In this document: piece after piece, positions 21,268 to 23,733 of the stretch | How the letters are laid out: each line of letters opens with the position of its first letter | Numbering within the stretch: position 1 is the first letter of the stretch | Notes under the pieces: generated by a model | Database searches by the model: none | Told to the model about the DNA's origin: nothing | What the model saw: the letters and a program-made list of their open reading frames with translations, nothing else | Program-made: the position numbers and the translations under genes | DNA from: an uncultured Verrucomicrobiales bacterium | GTDB taxonomy: Bacteria > Verrucomicrobiota > Verrucomicrobiia > Verrucomicrobiales > Akkermansiaceae | Length of the DNA stretch: 64,000 bases | Assembly (NCBI GenBank): GCA_937951675.1 | Contig: CALFBI010000007.1 | Span: 1 to 64,000, forward strand | Direction of reading: 5' to 3'

Positions 21268-23589
21268 ATGAGTGAGGCAGAAGATCGTTACGAAATCCGC
21301 AATAAATTACGGCAAGGTGAACTGGGCACGGTCTATCGAGCTCGTGATAATCAGTTCAACAAAGATGTCGCCTTATTCCGCATCCTTCCTGAAGACAGCG
21401 GAGCCCATGAGCAAAATGAAGCCATTTCCGAAATGGAACATTATTGTAAGGTCCTCCATGAAATACAGCATCCGAATATTCTGAATATTTTTGATGCCGG
21501 AGTCGATGCAGACGGACCTTTTATTGTCACCGAGTATTGCAAAGGGCAATCCGTTCGGGACTCGATCAACACCGAGCAGCTTTCTCAGAAAGATTTCATT
21601 GAATTCGCAGAGGATACCCTGCAAGGGCTTCACGCCATTCATAGCGCCAACCTCCTTCATAAGAACTTAAAGCCTACGAATATCATCTTTGCGGAGCTCC
21701 CTTCCGGCACTCTCCAAGCCAAACTCACTGACTTAGGCTTATCCCAATTTCAGATCCACAAACCAGCTTCGAGCTTCGAAGATCGAAGCCCGCGTAGAAT
21801 CCAGCATTTTACCGCTCCTGAAATTTTCGAAGGAAAAGAACACAGCCAAAGCTCTGACCTCTATGCCCTAGGATGTGTGTTTTACTACACCCTCACAGGC
21901 TGGTATCCTTTCCATCACGAGACTGAAGCCGAAATTCAAAAAGCTCATTTAGATAACGACATCCAAAACGTTTCAGAAGCCAGGACAGGGTGCCCGCAAT
22001 GGCTTAATGACTGGGTGATGCAGCACATTAAAGTCAACCCGAGTGACCGCCCCTCAAATGCTCTCCAGTCTCTGGAAAGCCTTGCTAAAGGCCCTTCCCG
22101 CCCTGCCCCAGCAACGGTTTCTTCAAAATTCATCATCCCTCCTGCTTCCAATCCCAACAAGCAAAGCGACACGGAAACTACTTCAGCAGTAGACACTCCA
22201 ACCCGCTCCCCTCAAGCCGTCGTTGTCCCCAGCGCGGAACAAATTGAAAAACCTTCTCCAACCGCAACGCAAGGCCTCTCTTCCGTCGCACCTCTCACTC
22301 CTAAACTTACTTTAGGGGGAAGCATTAACGAAGAAGGAGAACCCTCTTCTGCCCAACCTAACAAGGCTCAACCCAAGAAAACGACCCTTCTCAGTGGTGG
22401 CTCTGCACAAGGAACTCCCACCTCTTCCCTAAGCGCTCCTGAGGAGCCTGCCCCAGAAGAGGCTGCGGAAGAAACTCCCCCTCCGGTCGCCAAGGTCAAA
22501 AAACCGATGAACAAGAGCGCTAAAATCGCTCTCTTCTCGTGCCTCGGAGCTGGAATCATTATTGCAGGAGCGGTTCTAGCAAGTAGCGCGAGTAACAATA
22601 AGTTCCAAAAAGAACTCAATGCGCTCATCATGCAAACTTCAGATCAAGACCCTTCGCACCGCGAACCTACCACCAAAGCTCAGCTCATGACGCTCATGGA
22701 GCGCATGATCACCCTTGGCGCTGATGACCTCCGGGACGCCGTTCAACAGCGAGTCATGCTCGCGGAAGGAACCGACTGCAATGTTGACGACGAAGTCGTC
22801 CAGTTTGCAACAACACAGACCATGCTCCCCTCACTTCAAAAACGCTTCTTTGACATCATAGATAGCCGCAGTGAGCCCAAAGTCGCAGGAGATGTGCTCC
22901 AGTATGTCGCCGCGAATATGGAACATGAAAATGCTCCCTACGCTCTGAACTCGATCCGCAAAAGCGTGAGGGATAAGCACTTCTCTCCAACCCTTCAAAT
23001 TTTGATCGATGCTCCAAATGATGAGATTAAACGTAATGCCGAAAAACTCATCTCGCGCATTGGCAAGAAAACGAAGCGATCTGAGAAACTCAGTAACGAC
23101 ATCATCACCGCCTATCAGCGCACCGATGATGAAAATAAAAAATTGGCTCTTCTTCGCCTCCTCGGCTCGACCGGTGGATCAAACGCGGTCAAAGTCATCA
23201 AAGACGTTCTCAGCACCGGAACTCCTAGTGATCAACTGGCAGCTATTAATGCTCTTAAAAACTGGAAAAACGATGACATGTTCGAAGCCCTTCTCGAATC
23301 AATGGGGCTGAGTATGGATAAACTCATTCGTAAAAAATCATTCGAAGCGGCCCTAAATTTCCTCTCACAAAACAGAGAACGCCCGGATGAAAAAACCAAA
23401 GAAATGTGGGAAAAGCTCAAAAAGCTCGCCGAAAGTCCCGAAGAAAGACTTGGAATCATCAATACTTCTGCGCGTGCCCTTCGTTCCCCTTGGGTCAAAG
23501 AGTTCCTCTCTTCCTACTTAACCGATGATAATGAGCAAGTTAAAGACCGAGCTGATCGAGCTCTTGAATTTATTGCCAATAGAAAATGA
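21268..23589 (+). CDS. Membrane-anchored Ser/Thr pseudokinase with HEAT-like C-terminal domain
   Basis: The 773-residue product has a Hanks-type kinase fold at about residues 8-270, a Pro/Ser/Thr-rich linker, one membrane segment at about 419-440 and a helical, HEAT-like repeat region to the end. Key catalytic residues are missing: the ATP-binding lysine of VAIK is Phe37 (VALFRIL), and the catalytic Asp of the HRD loop is Asn133 (LLHKNLKPTN). The glycine loop is partly kept (GELGTV) and DFG reads DLG at 155-157. It is thus probably a pseudokinase that senses or scaffolds. The kinase part would be cytoplasmic and the repeats on the other side, assuming a single crossing. It diverges from the TonB receptor gene. 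No phosphatase or regulator gene is adjacent. Confidence 0.85.
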   Translation: MSEAEDRYEIRNKLRQGELGTVYRARDNQFNKDVALFRILPEDSGAHEQNEAISEMEHYCKVLHEIQHPNILNIFDAGVDADGPFIVTEYCKGQSVRDSINTEQLSQKDFIEFAEDTLQGLHAIHSANLLHKNLKPTNIIFAELPSGTLQAKLTDLGLSQFQIHKPASSFEDRSPRRIQHFTAPEIFEGKEHSQSSDLYALGCVFYYTLTGWYPFHHETEAEIQKAHLDNDIQNVSEARTGCPQWLNDWVMQHIKVNPSDRPSNALQSLESLAKGPSRPAPATVSSKFIIPPASNPNKQSDTETTSAVDTPTRSPQAVVVPSAEQIEKPSPTATQGLSSVAPLTPKLTLGGSINEEGEPSSAQPNKAQPKKTTLLSGGSAQGTPTSSLSAPEEPAPEEAAEETPPPVAKVKKPMNKSAKIALFSCLGAGIIIAGAVLASSASNNKFQKELNALIMQTSDQDPSHREPTTKAQLMTLMERMITLGADDLRDAVQQRVMLAEGTDCNVDDEVVQFATTQTMLPSLQKRFFDIIDSRSEPKVAGDVLQYVAANMEHENAPYALNSIRKSVRDKHFSPTLQILIDAPNDEIKRNAEKLISRIGKKTKRSEKLSNDIITAYQRTDDENKKLALLRLLGSTGGSNAVKVIKDVLSTGTPSDQLAAINALKNWKNDDMFEALLESMGLSMDKLIRKKSFEAALNFLSQNRERPDEKTKEMWEKLKKLAESPEERLGIINTSARALRSPWVKEFLSSYLTDDNEQVKDRADRALEFIANRK

Positions 23590-23636: not shown

Positions 23637-23659
23637 CCGCCTCCTCCGAATGATAAACG

Positions 23660-23733
23660 ACCCGTTCGTCTAATGGTTAGGACTCCGCCCTTTCACGGCG
23701 GCAATAGGGGTTCAAATCCCCTACGGGTTGCCA
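23660..23733 (+). tRNA. tRNA-Glu (anticodon TTC)
   Basis: The sequence folds into a full cloverleaf. The acceptor stem is GACCCGT/ACGGGTT (one G:T pair), and the anticodon stem CCGCC/GGCGG encloses the loop CTTTCAC with TTC at 23693-23695. The T arm is AGGGGTTCAAATCCCCT, and CCA is encoded at 23731-23733. A promoter precedes it and a terminator follows directly. Confidence 0.96.

Follow-up and report, generated by a model that had tools for sequence, protein, structure and literature searches.

The window analysed here, a 64,000-nucleotide stretch of DNA from an uncultured member of the Verrucomicrobiales (Akkermansiaceae), carries a forward-strand gene whose product joins a kinase-like domain, by way of a linker and a membrane segment, to a helical-repeat domain. 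Its 773-residue reading frame is intact and has an ordinary position-specific GC content; a tRNA gene lies directly downstream (window 23659-23730, + strand; Rfam RF00005, 60.9 bits). The genome to which the window belongs (G000) is a 2.05 Mb draft in 28 contigs. Features of the gene are as follows, the five substitutions having been read from an alignment with relatives and from the codons.

21268-23589, + strand: whole gene, kinase domain (very probably a pseudokinase), linker, transmembrane segment (TM) and HEAT ectodomain; ATG start, 773 amino acids
21289-22056, + strand: Hanks-type kinase domain, residues 8-263 (Pfam PF00069; model aligned to the kinase domains of Stk1, PknA and PknB)
21310-21312, + strand: Arg15 (CGG) in place of the first Gly-loop Gly
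21376-21378, + strand: Phe37 (TTC) in place of the VAIK Lys
21442-21444, + strand: Tyr59 (TAT) in place of the alphaC Glu
21664-21666, + strand: Asn133 (AAC) in place of the HRD Asp
21733-21735, + strand: Leu156 (TTA) in place of the DFG Phe, with Asp155 kept
22099-22500, + strand: disordered Pro/Ser/Ala/Thr-rich linker, predicted cytoplasmic, residues about 278-411 (composition; pLDDT under 50 at 278-405 and 407-411)
22126-22143, + strand: linker motif KFIIPP, residues 287-292; kinase-less relatives have PKFIFPG as its equivalent (pattern picked post hoc)
22381-22398, + strand: linker motif TTLLSG, residues 372-377, resembling STFISG in kinase-less relatives (pattern picked post hoc)
22525-22581, + strand: transmembrane segment, residues 420-438 (hydropathy 2.42; model helix 416-455; Lys-rich N-terminal flank)
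22594-23580, + strand: HEAT-like solenoid, predicted ectodomain, residues 443-771 (family profile built without the window protein, E 6.5e-78)

A first-pass annotation of the same letters described a Hanks-type fold followed by a membrane segment and a HEAT-like region, and this layout holds. The Pfam kinase profile matches residues 8-263 at E 2.5e-40 (139 bits against a gathering cut-off of 31.7), and the modelled domain is bilobal, aligning with the solved kinases Stk1, PknA and PknB over 249-261 residues (VIA Z 29.7-30.1, rmsd 2.2-2.4; only residues 1-279 of the whole model enter this comparison). In the AlphaFold model of the full protein (mean pLDDT 81.1), kinase and solenoid lie mostly near or above 90, and the activation loop (163-176) and the linker fall below 50. 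The hydropathy peak at 420-438 sits within a single helix (416-455), which is followed by an alpha-solenoid from 470 to 772 with block-mean pLDDT mostly 95 or more. Structure prediction had been suggested for residues 440-773; modelled separately, residues 442-773 form a solenoid with mean pLDDT 92.8. HEAT_2 passes its whole-protein cut-off (30.1 against 27.7 bits), with its best stretch at 614-693 and no single stretch passing 0.001. Among solved structures, the ectodomain family profile finds the artificial HEAT-like alphaRep proteins (best E 4.3e-37 over 6 stretches), so that HEAT profile, alphaRep match and helical-hairpin model all point to a HEAT repeat protein. The fold search with the ectodomain gave 6 matches at E <= 0.001, all of them armadillo, HEAT or alphaRep matches too general to tie it to a named relative. 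The flank N-terminal to the membrane segment is rich in lysine, which argues, by the positive-inside rule, that the kinase domain would lie in the cytoplasm and the solenoid outside it.

The annotation had also read phenylalanine at the ATP lysine and asparagine at the HRD aspartate; both codons are as described, and the extent of the loss had been understated, as the alphaC glutamate, the first glycine of the Gly loop and the phenylalanine of DFG are gone as well. At positions 15, 37, 59, 133 and 156, where the window protein has R, F, Y, N and L, all 57 relatives obtained as best loci from searches of related genomes carry G, K, E, D and F. A wider set of 130 distinct sequences adds to these 57 a further 73 from named records scanned with a pair of patterns for kinase motifs (the 80 best out of 386 taken, 10 duplicates dropped), and is thus a selected one; 78 of its members also span the ectodomain region. 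A first scan of named contig records for relatives had returned nothing, and the second yielded the Verrucomicrobiales set. Lys37, Glu59 and Asp133 occur in 130/130, Gly15 in 125 and Phe156 in 129. Of the 63 kinase columns that are near-invariant (at least 95% conserved), the window protein retains 45 and loses 18; the other 130 lose no more than 9, with a median of 0. Its losses include Gly-loop positions 15 and 18, the VAIK lysine, the alphaC glutamate, position 88 (Met88, by its position the gatekeeper), the HRD aspartate, the DFG phenylalanine and positions 179, 182 and 186 of the activation segment; His131, Lys135, Asn138, Asp155, Gly157, Pro184, Glu185 of the APE motif, Asp197, Trp249 and Arg261 are among the residues retained.

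An alignment with related verrucomicrobial kinases had been proposed to see whether the two substitutions are conserved; they are not, lysine and aspartate being present in every homologue of the set. Homologues of this kind had been named in advance as the sign of strain-specific change or faulty sequence. Error in sequencing or assembly has in its favour that the genome is a 28-contig draft, but turning the codon of Phe37 into one for lysine takes three base changes and that of Tyr59 into one for glutamate two, and the 18 changes are scattered through ATP site, gatekeeper and activation segment without a break in frame; we therefore regard an error as having a negligible chance, and the claim of a degenerate kinase stands. 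Since K, E and D persist in all 130 homologues, the window protein is best described as a lineage-specific pseudokinase. A conserved pseudokinase family was considered and rejected on the same count.

Of the residues expected in an active Ser/Thr kinase, the VAIK lysine, alphaC glutamate and HRD aspartate are missing, and the DFG aspartate (D155) and catalytic-loop asparagine (N138) are present. From this pattern, catalysis has very probably been lost while the fold was retained, and the view that the protein is incompatible with normal phosphotransfer is upheld in the form that it most likely transfers no phosphate. Nucleotide binding may still be within its reach, the metal-binding Asn138 and Asp155 being kept together with Lys135. 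A non-canonical active kinase, in which another residue does the work of the lost lysine or aspartate, has precedent in WNK, which is active without the canonical lysine (PMC4718504), and could draw on the retained Asn138, Asp155, Lys135, His131, APE Glu185 and Asp197; yet K, E and D have been lost together, along with changes at Met88 and at positions 179, 182 and 186, and we consider such activity improbable.

Bacterial pseudokinases are not without parallel, and PMC12599244 lists seven families. The pseudokinase domain of MviN from Mycobacterium tuberculosis (ActPs3) is there described as a platform for recruitment that PknB phosphorylates and FhaA binds, and like the window protein it is a membrane-linked bacterial pseudokinase; ActPs3 is, however, characterised by degradation of all three catalytic motifs and deletion of the activation loop (PMC12599244), whereas the window protein keeps Asp155 of DFG and the loop. 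GLW pseudokinases share with it a bulky hydrophobic residue at the beta3 lysine and a TM helix C-terminal to the kinase, but have GLW in place of HRD and Leu or Trp at the lysine where the window protein has HKN and Phe, and are reported predominantly from proteobacteria (PMC12599244). The membrane-associated DYD pseudokinases likewise lack the alphaC glutamate, but carry Arg at the beta3 lysine position (PMC12599244) instead of Phe37. The main text of PMC12599244 contains no occurrence of Verrucomicrob, Planctomycet or HEAT, and literature searches, with subscription journals mostly beyond reach, found no paper on a kinase-TM-HEAT receptor. The PASTA kinases PknB and Stk1 offer the closest solved kinase fold and the same kinase-TM-ectodomain layout; the window protein differs from them in its HEAT ectodomain in place of PASTA and in its lost catalytic residues, and scores 171.7 bits where the PASTA kinase model (NCBIfam NF033483) asks for 450.

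Its nearest kin are receptors of the Verrucomicrobiales with the family ectodomain placed after a linker and TM, as at residues 443-771 of the window protein. Kinase-TM-HEAT receptors of Luteolibacter marinus and Persicirhabdus sediminis share its full layout, HEAT ectodomain included, at about 30% whole-protein identity, and Luteolibacter, Persicirhabdus, Rubritalea, Roseibacillus and Akkermansiaceae MAGs appear among the titles of named members. Intact receptors of the family keep K, E and D, and nearly always the Gly-loop glycine and DFG phenylalanine; the window protein has lost all five. Matches to the window protein at E <= 1e-50 occur in 142 of 260 genomes of the bacterial family, and ectodomain matches at E <= 1e-20 in 146 of 254, both counts including G000, which has a single ectodomain match at that threshold. 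No relative of the same genus was found among the 57 other genomes with matches to the window protein or in the wider listings for protein and ectodomain, and comparison of the window with 20 relatives revealed no conserved neighbour of the gene.

Divergence within the protein is uneven. In trees of 48 rows under the same model, its end branch measures 2.47 for the kinase, against a median of 0.084 and a maximum of 0.89 for the others, and 1.30 for the ectodomain, which is within the range of the others (median 0.355, maximum 1.79). Compared with 49 full-length relatives, the window protein has a mean identity of 40% in the kinase (relatives among themselves 66%, minimum 48%) and 24% in the ectodomain (30%, minimum 13%). 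On these branch lengths and identities, the gain in rate is concentrated in the kinase domain. In the ectodomain tree (73 rows) the window protein stands apart and joins at an open fork beside the group of genus g16 and the set of genus g14.

Kinase domains without the HRD aspartate are not confined to this gene. G000 encodes seven Hanks domains, of which three keep K and D (proteins of 869, 543 and 853 aa) and four lack the HRD aspartate, namely the window protein and the following.

L085:5980-7779, - strand: pseudokinase, 599 aa
L086:4836-6167, + strand: pseudokinase, 443 aa
L087:6087-6962, - strand: pseudokinase, 291 aa

The 599- and 291-aa proteins are 57% identical over 280 residues, with HRR and with Arg replacing the DFG aspartate; the 443-aa protein has HRG and no DFG. 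These three join at a support of 92 in a quick tree, where long branches meet, with the window protein apart; in a mixture-model tree the four pseudokinases of G000 need two changes, and we do not claim them as one clade. In eight relatives, 72 kinase matches were reduced to 59 aligned ORFs (the weakest five not fetched, three known family members skipped and five unalignable), of which 11 lack the HRD aspartate and several have an HGx motif, a form on which many pseudokinases have converged (PMC4718504). The share of 4/7 in G000 against 11/59 gives a Fisher p of 0.042, a weak, post hoc result from one genome. The relatives' pseudokinases (L258, L267-L269, L277, L279, L280, L284-L287) are varied, mostly with Arg at the lysine position and HG- or HY-type motifs replacing HRD.

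The kinase of the window protein might have come from this other branch of pseudokinases and been joined to a HEAT domain later, in which case no inactivation took place within the kinase-HEAT family. The best matches of the kinase domain are family members, but approximately unbiased (AU) tests on the kinase tree allow both placements (p-AU 0.44 with the active family, 0.663 with the other pseudokinases, the latter tree being 2.42 log units better); such pseudokinases exist in several relatives, and one of them, L279, shares the Phe at position 37. Against this origin, the HKN of the window protein differs from the HG- and HY-type motifs and Arg37 usual in the other branch, and its domain order and its two linker motifs are those of the kinase-HEAT family. 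The ectodomain profile, built without the window protein, found no match in 18 other ORFs for kinases or pseudokinases of relatives (a longer reading of L279 included), nor in any of the six other G000 kinases. A separate origin is accordingly given little credence, and the window protein is taken, on its ectodomain and layout, as a member of the kinase-HEAT family.

Searching with the ectodomain, not with the kinase, exposed relatives in which the kinase has disappeared. Nine genomes of genus g16 hold a TM-HEAT protein without a kinase match, and in six of them the ORF is complete, with an in-frame stop upstream, related starts, a Pro-rich linker, TM and HEAT.

L338, L340-L343, L347 (genomes G015, G241, G232, G234, G235, G238): kinase-less TM-HEAT receptors

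The G238 ORF begins near its contig start and the other five further inside; those of G229, G230 and G233 run off the contig end, and are named because they fall in the kinase-less g16 clade and their genomes lack a family-kinase match. A search of 13 g16 genomes with the family kinase domain found a 72%-identity kinase in G026 and G240 only; the other 11, most of them 86-96% complete, gave a best match of E 3.4e-32 or weaker. G240 has the kinase at one contig end and the ectodomain at another, both ends falling inside the Pro-rich linker, so that assembly may have cut a single intact gene in two; in G026 the kinase is at a contig end and no ectodomain matches. Short ectodomain ORFs open at a contig end (G222, G227, G230, G233, G240, G251, G256) are not counted as proven kinase loss. 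Two other cases are likewise uncounted: a 585-aa TM-HEAT frame in G254 (L356:141-1895) that matches no kinase and lies close to the start of a contig, with an upstream in-frame stop, which is a loss or an assembly break, other members of its genus (g9) carrying the kinase; and L352 of G265, where the ectodomain is spread over two overlapping frames and a further frame holds a kinase fragment, possibly a broken copy or an assembly fault.

A further form occurs in G207 of genus g14, where the receptor lies between what we take, from reading the sequences by eye, to be SurA-like and TyrS-like genes, as it does in G164, G189 and G211. At this locus the latter three carry kinase and HEAT in one ORF, and G207 (L348 / L380) retains a kinase remnant of about 60 N-terminal residues, with the VAIK lysine changed; its remainder is 65% identical to a kinase-bearing relative over 450 columns, some 300 residues being missing in between, and the best family-kinase match elsewhere in the genome is E 2.8e-27. 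In several g16 genomes the receptor adjoins a presumably DnaK-like gene, with a GroEL-like gene, named in the same way, further on. This hints at a proteostasis theme around the relatives' receptor genes; no such neighbourhood (SurA-, DnaK- or GroEL-like) lies beside the receptor in the window.

The nine kinase-less g16 rows group together in a single clade of the ectodomain tree (SH-aLRT 97), next to G240 (98) and, one step further out, G007 (98), both genomes carrying an intact family kinase, and G207 is nested within the kinase-bearing g14 set (99). Together with the position of the window protein, these placements make three separate events the simplest reading of the tree, that of the window protein being the least sure.

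Without its kinase the rest of the receptor has not drifted. By Nei-Gojobori estimates, the three closest kinase-less pairs have dN/dS of about 0.05-0.09 (G015-G241, dN 0.034 and dS 0.653; G015-G234, 0.060 and 0.662; G241-G234, 0.064 and 1.041), the 12 more distant g16 pairs having dS >1.2 or not computable. G207 against its four kinase-bearing relatives gives dN 0.159-0.198, dS 0.974-1.200 and ratios of 0.16-0.19, and the six pairs among those relatives give about 0.19-0.28. These low ratios indicate that the TM-HEAT module stays constrained in kinase-less relatives, the window protein standing outside these comparisons. The gene in the window might itself be a functionless remnant, decaying under relaxed constraint in a reduced genome: G000 has only 2.05 Mb, the kinase branch is long, and several other small genomes of the family (e.g. 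G003, G004, G005 and G016) have no ectodomain match. Against this, the frame is open over all 773 residues with its ordinary GC pattern, the ectodomain is full length at E 6.5e-78, and retention of 45 of 63 core columns departs from an assumed 50% (binomial p 0.0004). Under simulated neutral decay of the kinase part alone, 2 of 300 domains reached 44% identity without a stop, a control that is not extreme and is no more than suggestive. A remnant is thus unlikely, albeit the strongest of the rival explanations, and a maintained receptor is preferred.

Short motifs recur in the linkers. The pattern K/R-F/L-I/V-F/I-P-G/P, searched with a somewhat wider regular expression, occurs in 48 of 100 linkers (mean 1.5 and maximum 6 in 200 shuffles), among them those of the window protein (KFIIPP) and of 5/6 kinase-less g16 proteins; it is absent from the G207 linker. 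Of the 100 linkers, 8 hold a second pattern that resembles TTLLSG (shuffle mean 0.19, maximum 2), those of the window protein, G007 and six g16 proteins. Both patterns were chosen after the sequences had been seen, and the motifs are candidates for docking sites able to outlast the kinase.

The usual view of a bacterial Hanks-type receptor kinase is that of a device which takes a signal in and gives phosphate out. For the window protein we favour, at a probability of about 0.7, a single-pass envelope receptor of the verrucomicrobial kinase-TM-HEAT family whose kinase has become a pseudokinase, the membrane-solenoid part working without phosphotransfer and the kinase fold serving as a binding or scaffold module. 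The extracytoplasmic solenoid would bind a putative partner, membrane helix and linker would carry the bound state inward, and the kinase fold with the linker motifs would provide a platform for docking or allosteric control, perhaps used by a G000 Hanks kinase from among the three that keep lysine and aspartate. That the protein is a receptor working by binding was already the proposal of the first-pass annotation; it is still inferred, and gains support from relatives with linker, TM and HEAT alone and from the strong purifying selection on their closest pairs. For the family as a whole, it is reasonably probable that linker, TM and HEAT perform the conserved job and that the kinase is a disposable output module, inactivated in the window protein, cut in G207 and removed in the g16 clade on three separate occasions.

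A bacterial pseudokinase alone would hardly surprise a specialist; repeated shedding of the kinase from a constrained receptor module is less expected. Related bacteria here hold one receptor family with the kinase intact, dead (in the window), truncated or absent, and two kinase-bearing members come from strain-named records. If the reading is correct, this is a natural series from active to absent for one bacterial receptor kinase, in which the role of such a kinase without catalysis, and the need for phosphotransfer, could be tested directly.

Residues Leu33 and Asp76 of the PknB dimer would correspond to Phe30 and Asp76 of the window protein; Asp76 is kept in 128 of 130 homologues, and the PknB mutants L33D and D76A exist. 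A back-to-back dimer of the kinase domain is a lead from this correspondence. Two PP2C matches and one FHA match show that G000 has phosphosignalling genes. Two PP2C-type phosphatases, L305 (G000:C6) and L306 (G000:C10), each have an N-terminal stretch that by eye resembles a small kinase fold of Bud32/RIO type (HGD/HDD..N..IDFE), and are possible kinase-phosphatase fusions.
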